Notes: generated from the letters alone by a model not told the origin. A stretch of DNA of 64,000 bases from Armatimonadota bacterium (GCA_031081585.1 JAVHLY010000001.1:1-64000), one strand, 5' to 3'; shown: positions 25,790 to 36,621, numbered from the stretch's first letter. Numbers and translations: made by a program.

Positions 25790-27976
25790 ATGAGCCTGCG
25801 CCGACGGATCATGGTGCTGGCGGCCATCGGGATGGTGGCCGCCACTGCGCCGTTGGGGCTCATGGGCGTCGGGATGCTCCGTGCCGCCACCGAGCGCGTC
25901 CTGGCCGAACGGCTCGCCCTGACGCGGGTGACGGCGGAGCACCTCGACGGGCGGCTGAGCCGGAGCCGGGACCACCTGGTGGTCCTGGCGCGCCTGGTGG
26001 CGGCCGCGCGGGCGCGCGGCCGTCTCGGGGAGATGCGCCCCGTCCTCGCGGCCATCACCCTCGAGTCCACAGTGTTCACTGGCGGAGTCCTCCTGACGGA
26101 CGCCGCGGGTGAGCTGGTCTTCCAGGAACCCGGCACCGACGCTCTGGCGTTGTCCCGTCAGGACCTGCGCCCGGTGATCCACCAGACCCTGAGCACGGGG
26201 CGACCGGCCGTCAGCACGCTGCTCCGCACGGCCGGCAGCCTCCCCGTCGTCGTCATGACGGTGCCGGTTCCCGGTCCGGGACCCCGGCCGGCGGGAGTGC
26301 TGGCCGGAGTGATCAACCTGGCGGACCCTGCCCTGCAGACGTTCGTGGAGGGCATGGCCGTCGGCACCACGGGGCACGCCGTCGTCGTGGATGCGGACGG
26401 CGTCGTCCTGATGAGCACCGACCGCAGGGAACTCTTCACGCGGGGCGAGCACCCGGAGTTCTTCATCCGGCACATGCGGGCACGGAAGGCCGCCGTGGGG
26501 CCGACGGAGGACCGCGAGGGGCACGCCATGGCCTTCGTGCCCCTGACGACGGTGCCCTGGGGCGTCGCGGCCGGCCAGGACGAAGAGGAGACCTTCGGCC
26601 CGATCCGGCGGCTGCGCGACCGCATCGTGCTCTTCGGGCTGGCGGTGCTGGCCGCCGCCCTCCTCTTCGCGTGGGTGGACACCGGGGCGGTCGCCGCCCC
26701 GCTGCGGTTGCTGCAGGAGAACGCCGAGCGCATTGCCCGCGGCGACCTGGGGCGTCCCGTGGACGTGCAGCGGGGCGACGAGATCGGCGCGCTGGCGCGG
26801 AGCTTCGAGACGATGCGGGTCAGGCTCCTGGCCTCTCTGGAAGAGATCCAGCGCCGGGCCGTCGCCTCCCAGGCCCTCTACGAGGTGGGCACCGAGGTGT
26901 TGAGTCTGCGGGACCGGGATGCGGTGCTGCGTTCTGTCGCCGCCCGTGCCGCCTCGCTCCTCCGGGCCGACGTCGCCGTCGTGTGCCTGTTCGCCGGGCG
27001 GGGCGACCGGGCCGTCGTGCGCGCGGCGTCCGGCCCGGCGGCCGGCGCCGTCGCCCGGGGGAGCACCTTCCCGGTGCCGGCCGGTGATCTCCAGCAGGGC
27101 TGCGTGACCTGTGCCAACATCGACGCGGCGCTCCGCTCGTCGCACCTGGCGGTGCCGCTCACCGTCGGTCGCCGCACGGTGGGTGCGCTCTGTGTCGCCT
27201 CCTCCACTCCACGGACCTTCTCCCCGGAGGACCGCGAGATCCTCAACGGCCTGGCCAACCTGGCCGCTATCGCCGTGGAGAATGCACGGCTGCAGGGGCA
27301 GGTGCGGTCACTGGCGGTCGCTGAGGAGCGCGAGCGCATCGCGCGGGAACTCCACGACAGTGTTGGCCAGGTGTTGGGCTACGTCAACACCAAGGTCCAG
27401 GCAGTGAAGCTCCTGCTGGAGGCCGGGAAACTGCCGGAGGCCCTGGCACAGCTGGGGCAGCTGGAGGACGCGGCGCGCACGAGCTACGCTGACCTGCGGG
27501 AGGCCATCCTGGGGCTGCGCACCGAGATCTCGCCCCACTGCCGGCTGGTGGACGCCTTGCGGGAGTATGTCAGCCGTTTCAGTGAGCTGAGCGGTGTGGA
27601 GACCCGGTTGCTCGTCGAGGGCGATCCTGCCGCATACCTCGTGGACCCGCCCGTCGAGCTCCACCTGATCCGCATCGTCCAGGAAGCGCTGGCCAACGTC
27701 CGCAAGCACGCGCGGGCCCGGCGCGCCTGGGTCTGGTTGGTGGAGCGGGGAGGGACCCTGATGGTGTCCGTCAGCGACGACGGCGTGGGGTTCGACCCGG
27801 CCCGCGTCGGCGGGGGGCTGTGGCCGCGGTTCGGCTTGCAGACCATGCGCGAGCGGGCGGAAGCCATCGGCGGTTCGTTCGCGGTTCGCCGCCGCGACGG
27901 CGGGGGTACGGTGGTGAGCGTCTCCCTGCCCGTGCATCGCGGGGGACCTGTGGATGCGCGTGCTGCTGGTGGATGA
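25790..27976 (+). CDS. NarX/LiaS-type sensor histidine kinase
   Basis: Membrane kinase of 728 residues. Helix 1 is at about 8-30, an extracytoplasmic Cache-like sensor at about 35-275, helix 2 at about 279-300, HAMP at about 300-350, GAF at about 360-515, HisKA_3 with the phosphoryl-accepting His522 (RERIARELHDSVGQVLGYV), and HATPase from about 600 (EALANVRKHARA, DDGVGFDP). The GAF domain holds a Cys-x2-Cys pair (GCVTCANID), which might bind a metal or cluster or sense redox state. The response-regulator gene overlaps its end by 23 bases. The redox operon downstream is the obvious target, so a signal tied to electron acceptors is plausible. Confidence 0.92.
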   Translation: MSLRRRIMVLAAIGMVAATAPLGLMGVGMLRAATERVLAERLALTRVTAEHLDGRLSRSRDHLVVLARLVAAARARGRLGEMRPVLAAITLESTVFTGGVLLTDAAGELVFQEPGTDALALSRQDLRPVIHQTLSTGRPAVSTLLRTAGSLPVVVMTVPVPGPGPRPAGVLAGVINLADPALQTFVEGMAVGTTGHAVVVDADGVVLMSTDRRELFTRGEHPEFFIRHMRARKAAVGPTEDREGHAMAFVPLTTVPWGVAAGQDEEETFGPIRRLRDRIVLFGLAVLAAALLFAWVDTGAVAAPLRLLQENAERIARGDLGRPVDVQRGDEIGALARSFETMRVRLLASLEEIQRRAVASQALYEVGTEVLSLRDRDAVLRSVAARAASLLRADVAVVCLFAGRGDRAVVRAASGPAAGAVARGSTFPVPAGDLQQGCVTCANIDAALRSSHLAVPLTVGRRTVGALCVASSTPRTFSPEDREILNGLANLAAIAVENARLQGQVRSLAVAEERERIARELHDSVGQVLGYVNTKVQAVKLLLEAGKLPEALAQLGQLEDAARTSYADLREAILGLRTEISPHCRLVDALREYVSRFSELSGVETRLLVEGDPAAYLVDPPVELHLIRIVQEALANVRKHARARRAWVWLVERGGTLMVSVSDDGVGFDPARVGGGLWPRFGLQTMRERAEAIGGSFAVRRRDGGGTVVSVSLPVHRGGPVDARAAGG

Positions 27977-28622
27977 CCATCCCCTCTTCCGCGACGGCCT
28001 CCGAAGCCTGCTCCAGGCCCGGGGCGTTCAGGTCGTCGGCGAAGCCAGCGACGGGCAGGAAGCGCTCGAGCGCGCCTGGCAGCTTCGGCCCGACGTGGTC
28101 CTGATGGACATCACCATGCCCCGGATGGATGGCCTGGAGGCCACGCGGCTCATCAAAGCCCGGATGCCCGACGTCAAAGTCGTCATCCTGACCGTCTCTG
28201 ACGAGGACCGGATGCTCTTCGAGGCGATCAAGAGCGGGGCGCAGGGCTACCTGCTCAAGAACCTGCGGGCTGACGAGTTCTTCGACCTGCTGAGTGGGAT
28301 CGAGCGAGGCGAGGCTCCCATCACCCGCCGCCTGGCCAGCCGCATCCTGGAGGAGTTCGCCCGGGAACCCGGCGGCCCGAGCCGACCCGGGACGCACGAC
28401 GCGCTCACCGAACGGGAGCGCGACGTGCTCCGCTGCGTCAGCCAGGGCGCTTCCAACCGCGAGATCGCCGTCATGCTTCGCATCTCGGAGAACACGGTCA
28501 AATACCACATGAGGAACATCCTGGAAAAGCTGCACCTGCGGAACCGCGCCGAAGTGGTGGCCTACGCGGCCCGGCGGGGATGGCTCCCGCCGGAGCGGCC
28601 CCCGGACTCCGACCCGCCCTAA
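27954..28622 (+). CDS. NarL/FixJ-family response regulator
   Basis: DNA-binding partner of the kinase, 222 residues. The receiver domain (1-120) has Asp7, Asp8 and phospho-accepting Asp52 (VVLMDITMP), plus the conserved Thr and Lys (ILTVSD, YLLKNL). The LuxR-type helix-turn-helix is at about 150-210 (LTERERDVLRCVSQGASNREIAVML, ENTVKYHMRNILEKL). Start within the kinase gene, so the two are translationally linked. A perfect 8-bp inverted repeat 37 bases downstream is a candidate binding site. Confidence 0.95.
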   Translation: MRVLLVDDHPLFRDGLRSLLQARGVQVVGEASDGQEALERAWQLRPDVVLMDITMPRMDGLEATRLIKARMPDVKVVILTVSDEDRMLFEAIKSGAQGYLLKNLRADEFFDLLSGIERGEAPITRRLASRILEEFAREPGGPSRPGTHDALTERERDVLRCVSQGASNREIAVMLRISENTVKYHMRNILEKLHLRNRAEVVAYAARRGWLPPERPPDSDPP

Positions 28623-28818: not shown

Positions 28819-29301
28819 ATGGGGCGTGCAGTGGGGCTCGCCACCATGGTGCTCGTCCTGGCTCTCCTCGTGGGTGCTGCCACCGCGGGCGGCGGGCGGC
28901 AGGTGACCGTCACCATGGGCGAAGACGGCCCGCGCATGTTCTTCCGCCCGGCTCGGATCGTGCTGGCGTCGGGCGTCGAGACGGAGCTCGTCCTGGTGAA
29001 CCGCGGCAGGCTGAAGCACGAGTTCATGGTGTACGCGCCGCCGAAGCCCGGCATGTCGCGGGACGCCCTGCACGAGTGGGCCGAGGACAACAACTACTTC
29101 AAGGGCCTTGAGGTCACCGTGGAGGGTAGCGGGCTGGAAGTGGAGACCAGGGAGCTGATCGAGATCGAAGTCGCCGCGGGGAAATCCGCGGAAGTGAAGT
29201 TCACGCCGAAGAAGACCGGAACGTTTGAGATGGCCTGCCTGATCAAGGATCCGGTGGACCACTACCAGGCGGGGATGCGAGGCACGCTCGTGGTGAAGTA
29301 G
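28819..29301 (+). CDS. Secreted cupredoxin (blue-copper-like protein)
   Basis: Periplasmic or cell-surface electron carrier of 160 residues. An N-terminal signal peptide (ATMVLVLALLVGAATAGG) precedes a beta-rich domain. Candidate type-1 copper ligands are His67 (LKHEF), Cys140 (EMACL), His148 and Met153 (DHYQAGM). The Cys-x7-His-x4-Met spacing is longer than in azurin or plastocyanin but follows the same order. GGAGGTG precedes the ATG by about eight bases. First gene of a five-gene cluster with a second copper-type protein, an iron-sulfur protein and an NrfD-type membrane protein, so it is probably the soluble partner of that complex. Confidence 0.85.
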   Translation: MGRAVGLATMVLVLALLVGAATAGGGRQVTVTMGEDGPRMFFRPARIVLASGVETELVLVNRGRLKHEFMVYAPPKPGMSRDALHEWAEDNNYFKGLEVTVEGSGLEVETRELIEIEVAAGKSAEVKFTPKKTGTFEMACLIKDPVDHYQAGMRGTLVVK

Positions 29302-29316
29302 TGGAGGTGCGGCGCC

Positions 29317-29766
29317 ATGGGGCAGAGAGCGGTCACCGCCAGCGCGGTCTTCGTGGCGGTCCTGGCGACGGCGGCGGCCATCTATCTGGTGGATCAAGGG
29401 TACCGCCCGCCCATCTCGGCCGCGCCGCCGGTGACGCCGGAAATCCGCCGGTTCGACCTCTACCTGCACGCCTTCGAGGTGGGGGACCGCCCCGTCTATC
29501 ACTGGATGCCGCCGACGCTGGTCGTCAATGCTGGCGACCCGGTGATGCTGCGGGTGATCAACGCCGACCCTGACAGTGCCCACGGGTTCGCCCTGGGCGC
29601 CTTCAACCTCGCGGTCCCCAGCATCCCGCCCGGGCAGGCCACCACCCTCCGCTTCCGGGCCACGCGGCCCGGTGTGTACCACTTCGGCTGCGCCCTCACC
29701 GGCTGCGCTGCGGATCACGCCAGCCAGGTGGGCCAGCTCGTCGTCCTGGGCGACACGCCGCCGTGA
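29317..29766 (+). CDS. Membrane-anchored cupredoxin, COX2-like, with altered copper-A-type motif
   Basis: 149 residues: an N-terminal anchor (AVFVAVLATAAAIYLVDQGY) and a cupredoxin domain resembling the CuA domain of cytochrome oxidase subunit II. His89 (SAHGFALG) is the first ligand; the C-terminal loop reads C-A-L-T-G-C-A-A-D-H (Cys125, Cys130, His134). In CuA the pattern is C-x3-C-x3-H-x2-M. Here one extra residue separates the cysteines and Gln137 stands where the Met would be. This may be a modified binuclear site or a mononuclear one. GGAGGTG lies upstream. No oxidase subunit I is nearby, so it is not an ordinary oxidase subunit II. Confidence 0.8.
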   Translation: MGQRAVTASAVFVAVLATAAAIYLVDQGYRPPISAAPPVTPEIRRFDLYLHAFEVGDRPVYHWMPPTLVVNAGDPVMLRVINADPDSAHGFALGAFNLAVPSIPPGQATTLRFRATRPGVYHFGCALTGCAADHASQVGQLVVLGDTPP

Positions 29767-30665
29767 GGGTCTCGCGACGGTCCTTCCTCAAGCTTGCCGC
29801 CGCCGCCGGGATGGTCGCGGCATGGGCGGTGGGCGAGCCGGCGGCTCCGGTGCGCCGCCCGTGGGTGGGGGCGGGCCGCGGCGTGCCGGCCCTCGCCCGC
29901 AGCACGGGCCAGGCCGGTCGGCCACGTCGCTGGGTCATGGTGGTGGACCTGGCCAAGTGTGACGGCTGCCAGGAGTGCACCCGGGCGTGCACCGCCATGC
30001 ACCGCGTCCCGCCAGGACAGGAGTGGATTCGGGTCTACGAGATGCGGGACGAGGCCACCGGCCTGGCCTACTGGCTGCCGCGTCCCTGCATGCAGTGCGA
30101 CAACCCGCCGTGCGTGAAGGTCTGCCCGGTCAGCGCCACGTGGAAGCGCGACGACGGCATCGTCATGCAGGACACCAGCCGGTGCATCGGCTGTCGGTAC
30201 TGCATCGCCGCGTGTCCCTACCAGGCCCGGGCCTTCAACTGGCTCGAGCCGGCCGCCACCCCCGAGCGGACCGGGGAGGCGTACGACCCCGAGTGGAACC
30301 GCGTGCATTTCAAGGGCACCACGGAGAAGTGCATCTTCTGCCCCGCCCTGATCAAGGAGGGGAAGCTTCCCGCCTGCGTGGCAGCCTGTCCCATGGGTGC
30401 CATCTATTTCGGCGACCGTGAGGAAGACGCCGTGACCAACTCCCAGGGCGAGACGGTCCGCTTCTCGGCGCTGGTGACCGAGCAGGCCGGCTACCGCCTG
30501 TTGGAGGAGCTGGGCACCGAGCCGCGCGTCTACTACCTGCCGCCGCGCCAGCGCCTCTACCCCGCGCCGCCGGCGGAGCCGGCGGCGGCACCTGTGCCGG
30601 CGGCGGCGCCGCGACGGACCGTTCCGCCGGACCGGCCTGGCGCCGTCGGAGGTGCGGTGCCATGA
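29763..30665 (+). CDS. Tat-exported ferredoxin-type protein with four [4Fe-4S] sites (NrfC/DmsB-like)
   Basis: Electron-transfer subunit of 300 residues. The twin-arginine signal is SRRSFLKLAAAAG, so the protein works on the outer face of the membrane. Four cysteine groups are seen: KCDGCQECTRAC, CMQCDNPPCVKVCP, CIGCRYCIAACP, and CIFC with a later CVAACP. Together they would hold four cubane clusters, as in DmsB, NrfC and PsrB. The C-terminal 45 residues are Pro/Ala-rich. The GTG start overlaps the previous stop, and the next gene begins within its stop (ATGA). It would pass electrons between the NrfD-like quinone-binding protein and the cupredoxins. No molybdopterin enzyme gene is present in the cluster. 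Confidence 0.92.
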   Translation: MRVSRRSFLKLAAAAGMVAAWAVGEPAAPVRRPWVGAGRGVPALARSTGQAGRPRRWVMVVDLAKCDGCQECTRACTAMHRVPPGQEWIRVYEMRDEATGLAYWLPRPCMQCDNPPCVKVCPVSATWKRDDGIVMQDTSRCIGCRYCIAACPYQARAFNWLEPAATPERTGEAYDPEWNRVHFKGTTEKCIFCPALIKEGKLPACVAACPMGAIYFGDREEDAVTNSQGETVRFSALVTEQAGYRLLEELGTEPRVYYLPPRQRLYPAPPAEPAAAPVPAAAPRRTVPPDRPGAVGGAVP

Positions 30666-32230
30666 GCAGGCCGCCTCACCACGGGTTCTCGGACCGCGAG
30701 GAGCGCCTGCTCGCCTCGCTGTCGGCGGGCGGAACGGGCTTCTCCGCCTTGATCGGGGGGCTGCTGGCGGTGGTCGTCTGGGGCCTGGTGGCGTATGCCA
30801 CGCAGCTGCGCCACGGCCTGGGCGTCACCGGTCTGCGCGACCACGTCCTGTGGGGCGTCTACATCGCCAACTTCGTCTTCTTCATCGGCGTCAGCCACGT
30901 GGGCGCCCTGATGTCGGCCATCCTGCGTCTGACGGGCGCCGAGTGGCGGCGCCCCATCACCCGCATGGCGGAGGCCATCACCTTTGCCTCCCTCCTGATG
31001 GGAGCCCTGATGCCGGTGGTGGACATGGGGCGACCAGACCGGTTGCTGACCCTCATCGGGCATGGCCGACTGCAGTCCCCGATCCTGTGGGACATCCTGT
31101 CCATCACGACCTACCTGACCGGCAGTACGCTCTTCCTCTACGTGCCCATGATCCCCGACCTCGCCCTCCTGCGCCACCGCTACGCCGGGGGCCCCGCCTG
31201 GCGCCGGCGGCTGTACACCCTCCTGAGCCTCGGGTGGCAGGACACCCCCGCCCAGCGCCACGCCCTGGAGACCATCATGCGGGTGCTGGCGGTGATGATC
31301 ATCCCGATCGCCGTCTCCGTGCACACCGTCGTCTCCTGGATCTTCGGCATGACGCTGCGCGCAGGCTGGAACAGCACCATCTTCGGTCCCTACTTCGTCT
31401 CGGGGGCCCTGTTCAGCGGGGCCGCGGCGGTCGTGACAGCCATGGCGACGTTTCGGTGGGCCTACCACCTGGAGGACTACATCACCGAGGCGCACTTCCG
31501 GCGCATGGGCTACTTGCTCATCGCGCTGGGGCTGGCGTACGGCTACTTCACGTTCGCGGAGTACCTGACGCCCGCCTACAAGATGGCGACCGCCGAGCGG
31601 GGGTACCTCACGGCCGTCTTCAGCGGTCCCTTGGCGCGGCTGTTCTGGTTCACGCAGCTGACTGGCATCTTGCTCCCGGTGCTCCTCCTCACCCTGCCGC
31701 GGATCGCCTGGGTGCCTCGGCTGCACAGGGTACCGCTGTTGCGACCGCGGCCGGCGCTGGCGGCAGCCGTCACGTACGCCGTCGCCACCGTGGTCCTGTC
31801 CGCCGCCGGCCCGCGCATGACGATGGCCCGCGTGAACCTGACCGCGCTGATCCCACCGTGGGCGCTGCCGGCGCTGGTCCTCTGGCTCTTCCTGGCCTGG
31901 CTCCCCGTCTTCCACGTCCGGCCCATCGCGGCCGCCGTGGTCGCTTCGCTGCTGGTGAACGTCGGCGCATGGCTCAAGCGCTACCTCATCATCGTCCCGA
32001 CGCTGCTCAACCCCTTCCTGCCCATCCAGCGTGCACCGACTGGGTGGGCCGCCTACCAGCCCACCTGGGTGGAGTGGTCGATCACGGCCGGCGCGCTGGC
32101 GGGTTTCGCGCTCATCTACATCGGGTTCAGCAAGGTGTTCCCCATCATCCCCATCTGGGAGACGCGCCAGGAGCCCGCGCCGCTCCGCCCGGCCGGCCAG
32201 GAGGGGGTCCCCGGTGTCCCGGCGCTTTAG
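30662..32230 (+). CDS. NrfD/PsrC/ActC-type membrane quinone-interacting subunit
   Basis: Polytopic protein of 522 residues with about ten membrane helices. The first loop reads LRDHVLWGVYIANFVFFIGVSHVGALMSAILRL, and IPIAVSVHTVVSWIFGMTLRAGW contains the conserved His and Arg/Trp segment seen in ActC, HybB and PsrC. The C-terminal WVEWSITAGALAGFALIYIGFSKVFP is also standard for the long ActC-like branch. It likely oxidises or reduces the quinone pool and exchanges electrons with the adjacent FeS protein. ATGA overlap with the FeS gene shows coupled translation. Related subunits occur in alternative complex III, Qrc, Dsr and polysulfide reductase. Confidence 0.92.
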   Translation: MSRPPHHGFSDREERLLASLSAGGTGFSALIGGLLAVVVWGLVAYATQLRHGLGVTGLRDHVLWGVYIANFVFFIGVSHVGALMSAILRLTGAEWRRPITRMAEAITFASLLMGALMPVVDMGRPDRLLTLIGHGRLQSPILWDILSITTYLTGSTLFLYVPMIPDLALLRHRYAGGPAWRRRLYTLLSLGWQDTPAQRHALETIMRVLAVMIIPIAVSVHTVVSWIFGMTLRAGWNSTIFGPYFVSGALFSGAAAVVTAMATFRWAYHLEDYITEAHFRRMGYLLIALGLAYGYFTFAEYLTPAYKMATAERGYLTAVFSGPLARLFWFTQLTGILLPVLLLTLPRIAWVPRLHRVPLLRPRPALAAAVTYAVATVVLSAAGPRMTMARVNLTALIPPWALPALVLWLFLAWLPVFHVRPIAAAVVASLLVNVGAWLKRYLIIVPTLLNPFLPIQRAPTGWAAYQPTWVEWSITAGALAGFALIYIGFSKVFPIIPIWETRQEPAPLRPAGQEGVPGVPAL

Positions 32231-32867
32231 CGCTAGCGCGCTGATCGCCGGCCCGGGGGGGGTCTGGCTGGGCCTGGCGGTGGCGGCGCTGTTCGCCTGC
32301 CCGGCGTGGGCCGCCGAGCCGGCCCGCATCACCCTGGAGGTGGCGGGCCTCGAGGACGCGCGGTGGATCATGGCCGTGGTCACCGACGCGACAGGCGCGC
32401 CGGTGCCCGAGGCGCTCATCGTGTTCAAGGCCCGCACGACCTTCGGCTGGCTCCTCCTGGAGGAGCGATCGACGGACGCCGCCGGCCGGGCGCGGATGGG
32501 CCTTCCCGCCGGCGTGCGGGCGACGGCGATCCGAGCGGAGAGCGCGGACATCGGGCAGGTGCACGCGACCGTGCGCGTGGGTGGACCGTCCCCGGCCACT
32601 CCGCGGGTGCGACCGGACCGCGACGTGCTCAGGGCCCTGAGCCCGCAGCCGGGCGTGATCAGTCCCTATCCCGTGCCGGCGCAGGTGGCGCTGCTCGCGG
32701 CGGTCCTGGGCGGGATCTGGGCGACGTATGGGTATGTGGCCTGGCTCCTGTGGCGCATCCGCACGTCCGGTCGGTCGCAGGGCGTGAGGGCGCCGGCGTC
32801 CCCGGAGCGGGAACCGCTCACTGCTCGGCTTGGGTGGCCTCCAGGAAGGCGTGCAGGGCTGTCGTGA
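32214..32867 (+). CDS. Exported Ig-like (carboxypeptidase-regulatory-type) protein with C-terminal anchor
   Basis: 217 residues: a signal peptide (GVWLGLAVAALFACPAWAAEP), one beta-sandwich domain (ITLEVAGLEDARWIMAVVTDATGAPVPEALIVFKART and STDAAGRARMGLPAGVRATAIRAE), and a membrane helix near the C-terminus (VALLAAVLGGIWATYGYVAWLLW). The domain resembles those used to present or bind partners outside the cell. It begins inside the end of the NrfD-like gene with AGGAGGGGG upstream, so it belongs to the same operon and is probably an accessory subunit. The last 50 bases run into the convergent hydrolase gene. No catalytic residues are recognisable. Confidence 0.75.
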   Translation: MSRRFSASALIAGPGGVWLGLAVAALFACPAWAAEPARITLEVAGLEDARWIMAVVTDATGAPVPEALIVFKARTTFGWLLLEERSTDAAGRARMGLPAGVRATAIRAESADIGQVHATVRVGGPSPATPRVRPDRDVLRALSPQPGVISPYPVPAQVALLAAVLGGIWATYGYVAWLLWRIRTSGRSQGVRAPASPEREPLTARLGWPPGRRAGLS

Positions 32868-33612
32868 ACGCTTCCGGCGTCTCCAGGTTGCTCAGGTGGC
32901 CCGCCTCCGGCAGCACGATCAGCCGGCTGTTCGGGATGGCTGCGGCCATGGCCCGCGCGACCTCCGGCGGGGTGACCGAGTCCTCCTCCCCGACGAGGAC
33001 CAGGGTGGGCACGGTGATCTGGGACAGGAGGGGACGGCTGTCGGGACGGGCCGCCAGCGCCCGCAGGGTGGCCGCCAGCGCCCGCGGATCCGCCGTCGCC
33101 GCCAGTGCCTCCACGGTGGCGACGACGTGAGGACGGCGGGCGCGGGTCGTAGGACCCACCAGCCCGCCGACGAAGTCGCGCAGGGCCTCGCACCCCTCCT
33201 GCGCGACGCGCGCGGCCAGCGCCAGGCGGCGCGCCCGGCCCTCCTCCGTGTCCGGCTCGGCTCGCGTGTCGGCAAGGACGAGCCGGGTGGCGAAGGTCGG
33301 CGCCTGCTCCAGCAGCCGGAAGGCCACGTAGCCGCCCATGGAGAGACCGATCACGGTGGCCCGGGCGATGCCCAGTGACGCTGCCAGCGCCCTCACGTCG
33401 GCGGCGAGCTGCGCCAGCGTCACCTGGTCGCTGACGGAGGACTCCCCGAAGCCGCGCAAGTCCACGGTGAGCACCTGAAACCGGTCGCGCAGTCCGGCGA
33501 CCTGGGGCCGCCACATGCCCCGGTGGAGGGGGAAGCCGTGCAGGAAAAGGAGGGGCTCGCCGCTCCCCTCCAGGTCGTAGCCCAGCGTCACCCCGTCCAC
33601 GGTGCGTCGCAT
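32818..33612 (-). CDS. Alpha/beta hydrolase
   Basis: Soluble hydrolase of 264 residues of the 3-oxoadipate-enol-lactonase/esterase type. The nucleophile Ser is in GLSMGG, the acid Asp in VGEEDSVTP and the base His in EAGHLSN; the oxyanion-hole segment is LFLHGFPLHRGMW. All three catalytic residues are in the normal order. It faces the phosphoesterase gene across a 53-base divergent gap and its 3' end overlaps the preceding gene by 50 bases. Substrate unknown; the fold alone does not decide between lactonase, esterase and haloperoxidase-like roles. Confidence 0.88.
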   Translation of the reverse strand: MRRTVDGVTLGYDLEGSGEPLLFLHGFPLHRGMWRPQVAGLRDRFQVLTVDLRGFGESSVSDQVTLAQLAADVRALAASLGIARATVIGLSMGGYVAFRLLEQAPTFATRLVLADTRAEPDTEEGRARRLALAARVAQEGCEALRDFVGGLVGPTTRARRPHVVATVEALAATADPRALAATLRALAARPDSRPLLSQITVPTLVLVGEEDSVTPPEVARAMAAAIPNSRLIVLPEAGHLSNLETPEAFTTALHAFLEATQAEQ

Positions 33613-33649
33613 CGTGCCCTCCTCCTCGGGCGGGCTGCCGGCATGCCCT

Positions 33650-33658
33650 TGCTATCAT
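33650..33658 (+). promoter_or_regulatory. Extended -10 promoter, probably leaderless
   Basis: TGC-TATCAT ends seven bases before the GTG of the phosphoesterase gene, so the transcript would start at or next to the start codon. No ribosome site is present, consistent with a leaderless mRNA. Confidence 0.65.
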
Positions 33659-33665
33659 ACAGACC

Positions 33666-34232
33666 GTGCGGATCCTGGCCTGTGCCGACCTCCACGGACG
33701 GCCGGCTCGCGTGGCGCGGGTCCGGGCGCTGGTCGCCGAGCACCGCCCCGATGTCCTCTGTCTGGCGGGAGACCTGACGCACGCTGGCAGCGGCTCCGGG
33801 GCCCTCCAGCTGCTGGAGACCCTGGACGTGCCCATCGTGGCCGTGTCGGGGAACATGGACGACGCCCACACCGTGGAGGCGATGCGGCGGCGCGGGGTCC
33901 TCCTCGGCGACTCCCCCCGGGTCATCGGTGGGGTGACCTTCGCCGGCCCCGAGGTGGCCGGGCCCTGCGACGTGCTGGTGACGCACGAGCCTCCCGCCGG
34001 CGTGCTGGACCGCGTGGGCACCGGCCGGCACATCGGCTCCCCGGCGGTGCGCGCGCTGATCGAGCGCTGGCAACCGCGGCTGCACGTCTGCGGCCACGTC
34101 CACGAGTCGCCGGGCGTGGTCCGCCTGGGCGCCACGACGGTCGTGAACTGCACGCTGGGCCGCGACGAGATCGCCGGCGCCTTGGCCGTCCTCGAGGGCG
34201 AAGCGCTGGACGTGCGCCTCCTCCCCCCGTAA
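33666..34232 (+). CDS. Metallophosphoesterase (calcineurin-like)
   Basis: Two-metal phosphoesterase of 188 residues. The motifs are in order: ACADLHG (Asp8, His10), CLAGDLTH, SGNMDD, THEPPAG and GHVHE, which together bind two metal ions and cover the family fully. Size and compactness resemble the YfcE or small UDP-2,3-diacylglucosamine hydrolase-like groups. It starts with GTG and appears to have no leader (see the promoter entry). A remnant from another member of this superfamily lies at 60.2 kb. The natural substrate cannot be told. Confidence 0.9.
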   Translation: MRILACADLHGRPARVARVRALVAEHRPDVLCLAGDLTHAGSGSGALQLLETLDVPIVAVSGNMDDAHTVEAMRRRGVLLGDSPRVIGGVTFAGPEVAGPCDVLVTHEPPAGVLDRVGTGRHIGSPAVRALIERWQPRLHVCGHVHESPGVVRLGATTVVNCTLGRDEIAGALAVLEGEALDVRLLPP

Positions 34233-34402
34233 CTACTCCGCTCCCCATCGGTGGGTGGGCCCGGTCGTCGGACTGCAGGCCCGCCGCCCACCGCCCTGGT
34301 GCGGCCGTTCGTGCTCCCTTCCGGCTAGTTGTGCGTCACAGTGAGACCGCGGAGAGCGGGCGGTGCAAGCATGGCCTCACACCGACGAGAGGTCAACCAG
34401 CC

Positions 34403-35116
34403 GTGGGAGAGCCGGGGAGGGACGCGCGGAGCGGCGCGGGCCAACAGACGCTCCCGGCGGCGGAGACGCTGCTGCCGCTCGTCCGGGGGATTGCCCGGGG
34501 CGTGGCGCAGGCGTTGCCGCCGTCGGTGGAGGTGGACGACCTCGTACACGACGGGGTCGTGGGGTTGCTCGAGGCGATCGGGCGGTTCGACCCGTCGCGC
34601 GGCGTGGACTTCAGCACCTACGCCACCTACCGCATTCGGGGAGCCATCCTCGACGGCCTGCGCGGGCGCGACCCGCTCCCCCGCAGCCTGCGCCGCCAGC
34701 TGGGCGCGGCGCCCCGCGCATCGGCCCCGCTGGCCGTCGTGCCGCTGAAGGTCGTCCCACTGGATGCGGCCCTCGTCCTCGCCGGCGACGACGGGCAGCC
34801 CGAGGAGGCCCTGCTGGCCGAGGAGTTGCGGGCCGAGGTGGAGCGAGCCCTGCGCGCCCTCCCCCCGCGCCACCGGCGGCTCCTGGCCCTGCGCTTCGGC
34901 CGGGGGCTGCGCCTGCGGGAGGTGGCCGCCTGCTTCGGGATCTCCATGACGCGCGCAGCGGAGCTCCAGGAGCGGGCCATCCGCCGGCTGCGCACAGCCC
35001 TGGCGGTGGAACACCCCGACGGGCTCTCCCCGAACGGCAAGCCGCGGCGGCGCCGTCCTGCAGCCAACGCCGCTCCGAGCGTCCCGCCGGGCGAGCCAGC
35101 CACGGTTTCCAGGTGA
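34403..35116 (+). CDS. Group-3 sigma-70 factor (FliA/WhiG/SigB-like)
   Basis: Alternative sigma factor of 237 residues. Region 2 (VEVDDLVHDGVVGLLEAIGRFDPSRGVDFSTYATYRIRGAILDGLR, residues about 40-85) and the PRSLRRQ motif match the FliA/WhiG branch. Region 4 (ALRALPPRHRRLLALRFGRGLRLREVAACFGISMTRAAELQERAIRRL) lies at about 155-205. Region 3 is short and Ala/Pro-rich. The GTG start has GAGAGG about ten bases upstream. There are no flagellar genes in the window, so it probably directs a stress or developmental regulon. The SpoIIE-type phosphatase and STAS protein at 17-21 kb could control it by partner switching, and a kinase/regulator pair follows directly. Confidence 0.88.
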   Translation: MGEPGRDARSGAGQQTLPAAETLLPLVRGIARGVAQALPPSVEVDDLVHDGVVGLLEAIGRFDPSRGVDFSTYATYRIRGAILDGLRGRDPLPRSLRRQLGAAPRASAPLAVVPLKVVPLDAALVLAGDDGQPEEALLAEELRAEVERALRALPPRHRRLLALRFGRGLRLREVAACFGISMTRAAELQERAIRRLRTALAVEHPDGLSPNGKPRRRRPAANAAPSVPPGEPATVSR

Positions 35117-35159
35117 CCGCCTGGAGGGCATAGTGGCCCGCCAGGGTTGGGGAGGGAGC

Positions 35160-35936
35160 ATGGCCGGGCGCGAGGGAGGCGTGTGGTCTGCTCCGGATGC
35201 CGTGGCCGCGGTGGAGCAGATCCACGCCCACTTTCTCTGCAACGCCCTCACCGCGGTCCAGCTCTGGGTGGGGACACACCCCCGCCTCGCCGAGCAGCTC
35301 ATCGGGTTGCTGGCCGGATACGTGCAGGCCCGGCTCACCCCGGCCACGGTCGTCCCGCTGCGGCACGAGCTCGAGGTCGTGCTCACCTACCTGGCCCTCG
35401 AGCGGGTGCGACTGGGACCACGTCTGCGCACCCGGCTGGCCATCGCCCCCGAGACGCTGACGGCCGCCATCCCGCCGCTCGTCCTCCAGCCGCTGGTCGA
35501 GAACGCGGTGATCCACGGGGTGAGCGCCCGGCCGCTGGGCGGCACGGTGGAGGTGCACGCCTGCCGGCGGCGAGATCGGCTGCTCCTCCTGGTGGCCGAC
35601 GACGGGCTCCCGGTGGCCGCCGACGGGAGGGTCGCCGACGGGCATCGAGCGCAGCGGGCGTGGCTCGGCGGAGGGCGATCACGACCCGGCCCGGGGCTGG
35701 CGCTGCGCAACGTGCGCCGCCGGCTGCACCTGGCGTACGGTCGGCAGGGAGCGGTGCGCGTGGTGCGCCGCCTCGGACGCGGGTGGCTGGCGGTGGCGAG
35801 CCTGCCCTTTGAGGAGGCCGGAGAGACGGAGGCGACCGCAGAGACGGTGGGACCGCCGGCGTGGCCGGAGGAGCGCGGGCAGCGTGCGGAGCAGGGGCAC
35901 GGAGGGGCGGATGCGGGCCCTCGTGGTGGACGATGA
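35160..35936 (+). CDS. Sensorless LytS-type histidine kinase
   Basis: 258 residues, made of only a His_kinase domain and an HATPase domain. The dimerisation/phosphoacceptor box reads VEQIHAHFLCNALTAVQLWV, corresponding to the usual INPHFLFNALN; the phospho-accepting His is kept but Pro and the second Phe are replaced. The N-box is PLVENAVIHG. There is no membrane helix and no input domain, so the signal must come from another protein or from the cytoplasm. I chose the ATG at 35160 because GGGGAGGG is just upstream; an in-frame GTG at 35133 has no such site. The regulator gene starts inside its 3' end. Confidence 0.85.
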   Translation: MAGREGGVWSAPDAVAAVEQIHAHFLCNALTAVQLWVGTHPRLAEQLIGLLAGYVQARLTPATVVPLRHELEVVLTYLALERVRLGPRLRTRLAIAPETLTAAIPPLVLQPLVENAVIHGVSARPLGGTVEVHACRRRDRLLLLVADDGLPVAADGRVADGHRAQRAWLGGGRSRPGPGLALRNVRRRLHLAYGRQGAVRVVRRLGRGWLAVASLPFEEAGETEATAETVGPPAWPEERGQRAEQGHGGADAGPRGGR

Positions 35937-36621
35937 GGCAGCGGGGCGCCGGCTGCTCGGCCGGCTGCTCCGCGATCTGGGGCACGCGGTCGTGGCCGAG
36001 GCCAGCACCGGCGCGGAGGCACTGGCCGTGCTGGCGCACCGGACGGTCGATGCCGCCTTCCTCGACATCCGGCTCCCGGACCTGGACGGGCTGGCGGTGG
36101 GGGATCGGTGCCGGCGGGCCGGGATCCCGGTCGTCTTCGTCACCGGGTTTCCGGACTACGCGCTCCCCGCCTACGACGTGGCGGCGGTCGACTACCTGGT
36201 GAAACCACCGACCCTCGACCGGCTGGGGCGGGCCCTGGCTCGCCTGCGCGCGGCCGGGGAACAGACAGCGTCCCAGGGCGGGGCCCCGGACCGGCTGTGC
36301 CTGCGCGTGGATGGCGAGCACCGCCTCATCGCGGTGCGCCACGTGCTGGCGGTGCGGGCCGACGGTGCCGTGGTCACCCTGTGGCTTGAGGAGGGGTCGC
36401 TGCGGGCCCGGGTCCCGCTCGGGCGCCTGGAGCAGCTGCTCGTGCCCCACGGCTTCTTCCGCTGCCACCGCGCCTACCTGGTGAACCTGCGCCGGGTGCG
36501 GCGGATCGTCGCCTGGTCGCGCGAGGCCCACAGCCTCCTGCTCGACGACGCACAGGAAACCCTCATCCCCCTGGCCAAATCCCGCAGGCGGGCGCTGCGC
36601 GCGTTGCTCCTCTGGCCTTAG
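35911..36621 (+). CDS. LytTR-type response regulator
   Basis: 236 residues. The receiver domain has VVDDE at the start, the phospho-accepting Asp in AAFLDIRLPDLDG, Thr in FVTGF and Lys in YLVKPP. The C-terminal LytTR DNA-binding domain (DRLCLRVDGEHRLIAVRHVLAVRADGAVVTL, GFFRCHRAYLVNLRRVRRI) is complete. GGAGGGGC is just before the ATG. It overlaps the kinase gene by 26 bases. Relatives often control cell-wall turnover, competence or carbon uptake genes; the target here is unknown. Confidence 0.92.
   Translation: MRALVVDDEAAGRRLLGRLLRDLGHAVVAEASTGAEALAVLAHRTVDAAFLDIRLPDLDGLAVGDRCRRAGIPVVFVTGFPDYALPAYDVAAVDYLVKPPTLDRLGRALARLRAAGEQTASQGGAPDRLCLRVDGEHRLIAVRHVLAVRADGAVVTLWLEEGSLRARVPLGRLEQLLVPHGFFRCHRAYLVNLRRVRRIVAWSREAHSLLLDDAQETLIPLAKSRRRALRALLLWP

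Follow-up and report, generated by a model that had tools for sequence, protein, structure and literature searches.

The window, by which we mean the whole stretch of 64,000 nucleotides that was analysed (GCA_031081585.1, JAVHLY010000001.1:1-64000), carries five co-directional genes at positions 28819-32867, in the order cupA, cupB, FeS, NrfD and Ig, with a kinase-regulator pair upstream:

25790..27976, + strand: sensor histidine kinase, NarX/NarQ-like (weak dCache, HAMP, GAF, HisKA_3)
27954..28622, + strand: NarL-type response regulator (NarL model 175.9 bits, under the equivalog cut-off of 250)
28819..29301, + strand: cupA, secreted type-1 cupredoxin (Cupredoxin_1, 1e-8; ligands H, C-x7-H-x4-M)
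29317..29766, + strand: cupB, membrane-anchored cupredoxin (Cupredoxin_1, 7e-7; invariant H89, C125, C130, H134, Q at the Met position)
29763..30665, + strand: FeS, Tat-exported ferredoxin (Tat motif SRRSFLK; four complete [4Fe-4S] motifs, 16 Cys)
30662..32230, + strand: NrfD/ActC-type quinol-binding membrane subunit (PF03916, 6e-25)
32214..32867, + strand: Ig, an Ig-like protein with a C-terminal membrane anchor, third core subunit (CarboxypepD_reg/Big_1, weak)

The starts and stops of the kinase, the regulator and the five operon genes overlap or nearly so, and the last three junctions do overlap; the Ig gene has its GTG start, read from the DNA, at 32214 within the NrfD gene, with GGAGGGGG just before it. 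An earlier note, made from the sequence alone, had claimed five genes in this order behind a kinase-regulator pair, and the overlapping genes and family matches uphold that claim. Further along the window lie an open reading frame (33602-35116, + strand) whose second half resembles by eye a FliA/sigma-28-type sigma factor, and another kinase-regulator pair (35133-36621, + strand), by eye of the LytS/LytTR type.

No molybdopterin or multihaem gene is present in the stretch 28819-32867, and there is no CxxCH motif in the operon; no haem is encoded there. The host belongs to the phylum CSP1-3/Sysuimicrobiota (PMC11604079), of which 43 genomes were analysed, and its own genome is 96% complete. It bears a single NrfD gene, that of the operon, and two MopB genes, both away from the operon: one is FdhF-like (638 bits, above its cut-off) and the other, read by eye, is NuoG-like and lies within the nuo cluster. 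Its single COX1 belongs to an aa3-type oxidase (CtaD, 655 bits) whose accompanying COX2 carries a CuA loop, about 90 kb from the operon. The host also has a bc-type cluster of a Rieske protein, two cytochrome b genes, a dihaem cytochrome c and a cupredoxin. The second cytochrome b of that cluster (L012:6659-7951, - strand, the same as G000:C17:30658-31950) is extended at its C terminus by a fused domain in which two ferredoxin-type Cys motifs can be read by eye, and two or more PF13631 matches are found in most genomes of Sysuimicrobiota.

We scanned 84,980 species genomes for relatives. The unit is found in 9 of the 43 Sysuimicrobiota genomes, with NrfD identities of 49-88%, and beyond this phylum relatives occur in Chloroflexota, Bacteroidota, Bacillota and one MAG labelled Euryarchaeota. 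The Sysuimicrobiota carriers show the order kinase, regulator, cupredoxins, FeS, NrfD, Ig wherever the contig allows. Because orthologues in other families of the phylum share this order, a chance gene arrangement is excluded. The search for the same gene order that the earlier note had proposed thus finds the full order in other families of the host phylum and the FeS-NrfD-Ig core in several phyla. Among 42 related loci, FeS-NrfD-Ig/TM stands at 40 (Ig 40, FeS 40), accompanied by a response regulator at 23, a kinase at 23, a cupredoxin at 22 and a mono- or dihaem cytochrome c at 15; MopB is found at 2, both times next to an FeS gene of its own, and ActA at none. The counts in 12 control loci of alternative complex III (ACIII) are 11 for MopB, 9 for ActA and 0 for Ig. 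As to the two loci lacking a standard Ig gene, L053 stops 142 bases past NrfD and L060 has a divergent one, seen in a six-frame search as a weak Ig/TM match (E 0.0013) together with two cupredoxin genes. The claim that no molybdopterin or haem partner is present holds for the stretch itself, and the lack of a catalytic subunit is the rule in the 42 loci; a consistently co-occurring molybdopterin or multihaem subunit, which would have refuted the proposal, was not found near these loci (MopB 2/42, ActA 0/42).

The protein encoded after NrfD is modelled as an N-terminal helix, a beta sandwich and a long C-terminal helix (153-185), and the model has no telling match in the PDB. An Ig/TM profile iterated on 91 loci matches only directly after the NrfD of FeS-NrfD-Ig loci, and the protein is absent from all 65 loci with MopB/pentahaem or multihaem neighbours or with other types of NrfD (0/65). 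In a reverse search from Ig through 400 Chloroflexota genomes, 21 of the 22 matches among the returned loci lie directly after NrfD, the remaining one being a long repetitive protein; twenty loci from this Ig-side search, examined in full, show the same pattern. By its conservation the Ig protein belongs to the core of the unit and is not an accessory, while its assembly into a complex is inferred. In genome G003 (L033 and L043 are the same contig) the FeS-NrfD-Ig unit is in tandem duplicate (L033:4733-11712), the second NrfD being about 54% identical to that of the window. Two Chloroflexota loci (L049:7019-9024 and L053:6871-9002) have conserved genes between regulator and FeS, including one for an SPFH/Band 7 protein (Pfam in L049).

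The best PDB matches of NrfD are four ActC chains of ACIII (2e-55 to 3e-52). In the NrfD tree all members from FeS-NrfD-Ig loci, L060 included, form one group beside ActC (91/87), which is sister to the ActC from MopB/pentahaem loci and not nested in ActC. With 18 more members, the tree in which the group is held together beats the free quick tree by 24 log units and is not rejected (p-AU 0.89). We mapped NrfD residues on Rhodothermus marinus ActC with the residue list of PMC8076601 and PMC5928083. The quinol-site residues S164 and D169 do not vary, nor do R119, E122 and D191; H247 and R395 are conserved save for single exceptions. ActC H139 is replaced by Asp in 38/43 members, and for DsrP and QrcD too an Asp is named as part of the quinone site; the D253 position is hydrophobic in nearly all members; the window's NrfD has H139D and D253I. 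NrfD therefore keeps most of the quinol-site and proton-path (half-channel) residues. E394K, considered as a clade marker on a first count of 24/25, was dropped, since 13 of the 18 Chloroflexota members added later have Glu there. For FeS, the best models are DsrO (187 bits, cut-off 200) and QrcC. A Cys occupies position 144 of the window's protein in 41/41 members but in only 1/10 ActB, where 9/10 have Thr. The ActB cluster nearest the quinol is [3Fe-4S] (PMC5928083), and we infer that it is this cluster that is altered in FeS.

CupB has an N-terminal helix (2-28) and an AlphaFold model of pLDDT 90.5, for which the top Foldseek matches are NosZ chains and nitrosocyanin; it resembles the cupredoxin domains of NosZ and NirK. 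Its loop reads C-x4-C-x3-H-x2-Q and its copper site is atypical. The canonical CuA of COX2 and NosZ (C-x3-C-x3-H-x2-M) is rejected on spacing, and in CupB paralogues of relatives the spacing between the two invariant Cys varies, with longer gaps. Up to five cupredoxin genes surround the unit in relatives (L030:4539-6700, L033:10690-12721).

Neither the window's Ig protein nor that of its close relatives has a fused carrier, and their cupredoxins are encoded by separate genes. In other lineages the protein after NrfD bears an N-terminal cytochrome c, by Pfam in L046, L049 and L063 and by CxxCH in L050 and L051, or an N-terminal cupredoxin domain (L045, L047, L189, L190, L191, L193 and L201). 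The Ig-borne cytochrome c domain matches ActE. A carrier is missing from the available DNA at several of the 42 loci, only part of which lie on truncated contigs. This exchange of heads is the strongest argument for a one-electron carrier, as opposed to a catalytic subunit, as the partner.

It is also evident that aa3 oxidase genes lie beside the unit in three lineages: COX2, COX1 and COX3 immediately precede it, on its strand, in G013 (L034), SCO1 and COX1 lie directly downstream in a Bacteroidales MAG (L051), and COX2 and COX1 lie 5-6 kb downstream, likewise on its strand, in a Chloroflexota genome (L194). Similar gene clustering was used to assign ACIII to aerobic respiration (PMC3534657). 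COX1 is found in 9/9 Sysuimicrobiota carriers and in 11/12 other hosts, one of them with a fragment only. NosZ is present in 4/9 operon carriers versus 8/34 other genomes of the phylum, and is absent from the window's genome; a strict link to NosZ was rejected on this distribution. A Chloroflexota MAG has an MtrC/MtrF-like outer-surface cytochrome with ten CxxCH motifs after the unit (L046:12604-14898), which suggests another acceptor in that MAG; with such a decahaem neighbour, the oxidase need not be the general acceptor.

The earlier note had asked whether hosts lack bc1. This pattern failed in Sysuimicrobiota, the window's host included, where a bc-type cytochrome b is present in 42/43 genomes, all operon carriers included; elsewhere it occurs in 7/12 hosts and is missing from 5/12. 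One of these five, the Bacteroidales MAG G054, is also without any other NrfD: it has one NrfD, of this type, and three COX1-family genes, within the limits of its completeness. In one relative the kinase-regulator pair and operon are immediately preceded by a cluster of a Rieske protein, cytochrome b and a nine-CxxCH cytochrome (L156:9035-11854, G004:C21).

The gene set, its conservation, its relationships and most of its residues are shown. On these grounds we consider it likely that the operon encodes a minimal quinol:cupredoxin/cytochrome c oxidoreductase, although activity, assembly, direction of flow and acceptor are inferred and there are no biochemical data. In the proposed mechanism, quinol would be bound and oxidised at an outer-face site of NrfD, and its electrons would pass to the four [4Fe-4S] clusters of the Tat-exported ferredoxin. 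FeS would then reduce a membrane-held one-electron carrier, cupB here and an Ig-fused cytochrome c or cupredoxin domain in other lineages, and the soluble cupA would ferry electrons on to a CuA-bearing terminal oxidase. The probable role of the Ig/TM protein is to dock the carrier on FeS and NrfD. The polar residues kept in NrfD suggest that the reaction may also move protons, and pumping by the complex is a probable inference from them. The kinase-regulator pair would turn the unit on under some redox condition. The earlier proposal of a quinol:cupredoxin oxidoreductase, a minimal relative of ACIII, is thus supported as the best inference by the ActC-sister core, the carriers and the aa3 adjacency, its activity being untested. 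One argument against it is that a bc-type complex able to do the same job is present in nearly every Sysuimicrobiota genome, the host included. Further points against it are the oxidase lying some 90 kb off in the host, the absence of haem from the operon and the atypical copper site of CupB.

Among the rival explanations, reverse flow survives best, though we regard it as unlikely. A periplasmic donor would reduce the cupredoxin, and the proton gradient would drive electrons into quinone for lithotrophic growth, as in Qrc and Nhc with cytochrome c3. In its favor, DsrO and QrcC are the models that FeS matches best, Qrc and Nhc reduce quinone with electrons from a carrier (PMC8076601), and the phylum is said to include autotrophs driven by sulfide or hydrogen and, putatively, nitrite oxidation (PMC11604079). 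However, NrfD groups with ActC and not with QrcD, oxidase genes adjoin the unit in three lineages, and no periplasmic dehydrogenase gene adjoins it. Also doubtful, and by a small margin more so, is that quinol electrons go to a periplasmic reductase (NosZ, NirK) or to outer-surface cytochromes instead of oxygen. The likeness of CupB to the NosZ and NirK cupredoxin domains, the NarX/NarL-like regulator pair, a NosZ about 13 kb from the unit in G016 and the decahaem neighbour in L046 speak for it. Against it stand the scattered occurrence of NosZ (under half of the carriers, and not the window's genome) and the presence of COX1 in all nine carriers; moreover, oxidase adjacency recurs, whereas NosZ adjacency does not. 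An ordinary CISM complex with its molybdopterin subunit encoded elsewhere is very unlikely: FeS and NrfD are classic CISM modules and L030 has a MopB with its own FeS gene 4.5 kb downstream, but the host's only MopB genes are the NuoG-like one (nuo cluster, by eye) and FdhF, and MopB is near only 2/42 loci, each time adjoining an FeS gene of its own, so that a missing MoCo partner was rejected on the host MopB set and the 42-locus census.

ACIII is among the known systems closest to the unit. The two share an ActC-related NrfD with a quinol site (partly changed, H139D and D253I), an FeS protein related to ActB2, a presumed reaction from quinol to a one-electron carrier and, at times, clustering with cytochrome c oxidase. 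The unit differs in having no ActA pentahaem cytochrome (none in the 42 loci, against 9/12 ACIII controls), no MopB-like ActB1 domain in the operon, no ActF (and no second NrfD in the host genome) and no ActD match in the core loci. It has four [4Fe-4S] motifs where ACIII has one [3Fe-4S] plus three, and it adds the Ig/TM subunit and cupredoxin or mono/dihaem carriers. It thus fails ACIII membership on ActA, ActB1, ActD and ActF, yet probably works like ACIII, the function being inferred. The CISM molybdoenzymes (Psr, Dms, Ttr, Soe) differ in their molybdopterin catalytic subunit, which the unit does not have. With DsrOP of DsrMKJOP and QrcCD of QrcABCD it shares the Asp at the ActC His139 position and the 187-bit match of FeS to DsrO; however, NrfD is far under the DsrP and QrcD cut-offs (103.8 of 350 and 42.1 of 570 bits), and no DsrMKJ or QrcAB lies beside it in the operon. 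Cytochrome bc1/b6f has the same presumed reaction, from quinol to cupredoxin or cytochrome c, but the unit is unrelated to it in sequence and has no haem b, no Rieske protein and no expected Q cycle.

The novelty implied for an NrfD without a catalytic partner needs correction, since FeS/NrfD modules without a molybdopterin subunit had already been noted, with multihaem partners. These NrfCD-type modules, Mros1571-1572 of Melioribacter roseus (PMC3534657) and the MBNT15 clusters (PMC9386147), likewise combine FeS and NrfD without a catalytic subunit and are proposed to pass quinol electrons to periplasmic carriers; they differ in their multihaem cytochromes, and no Ig/TM protein or cupredoxin is described in the relevant passages. 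In Table 1 of a review of NrfD complexes (PMC8076601) every complex has a catalytic subunit, and none has an Ig subunit or a cupredoxin. NrfD with a cupredoxin, or with an Ig-like domain and cytochrome c, was not found in the open-licence literature searched. Within that literature, FeS/NrfD pairs without a molybdopterin subunit are thus known, and the Ig/TM core subunit, the cupredoxin or mono/dihaem heads and the ActC-sister NrfD are apparently undescribed.

Two machines are known to carry electrons from quinol to cytochrome c or a copper carrier, bc1/b6f and ACIII. In a bolder reading, FeS-NrfD-Ig would be a third class of energy-conserving quinol:electron-carrier oxidoreductase after these two, with a three-subunit core and exchangeable heads, spread over several phyla and forming the only link from quinol to cytochrome oxidase in some hosts such as G054; we see this as possible, but lean slightly against it. 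What the large empty MopB domain, clusters FeS2-4 and the second NrfD do in ACIII is unclear, and a relative without them, whether it lost or never had them, would show which parts quinol oxidation and proton pumping need. That cytochrome c and cupredoxin heads are swapped on a single anchor shows how respiratory modules recombine. Furthermore, in lineages that have no known complex III, the unit could account for electron flow.
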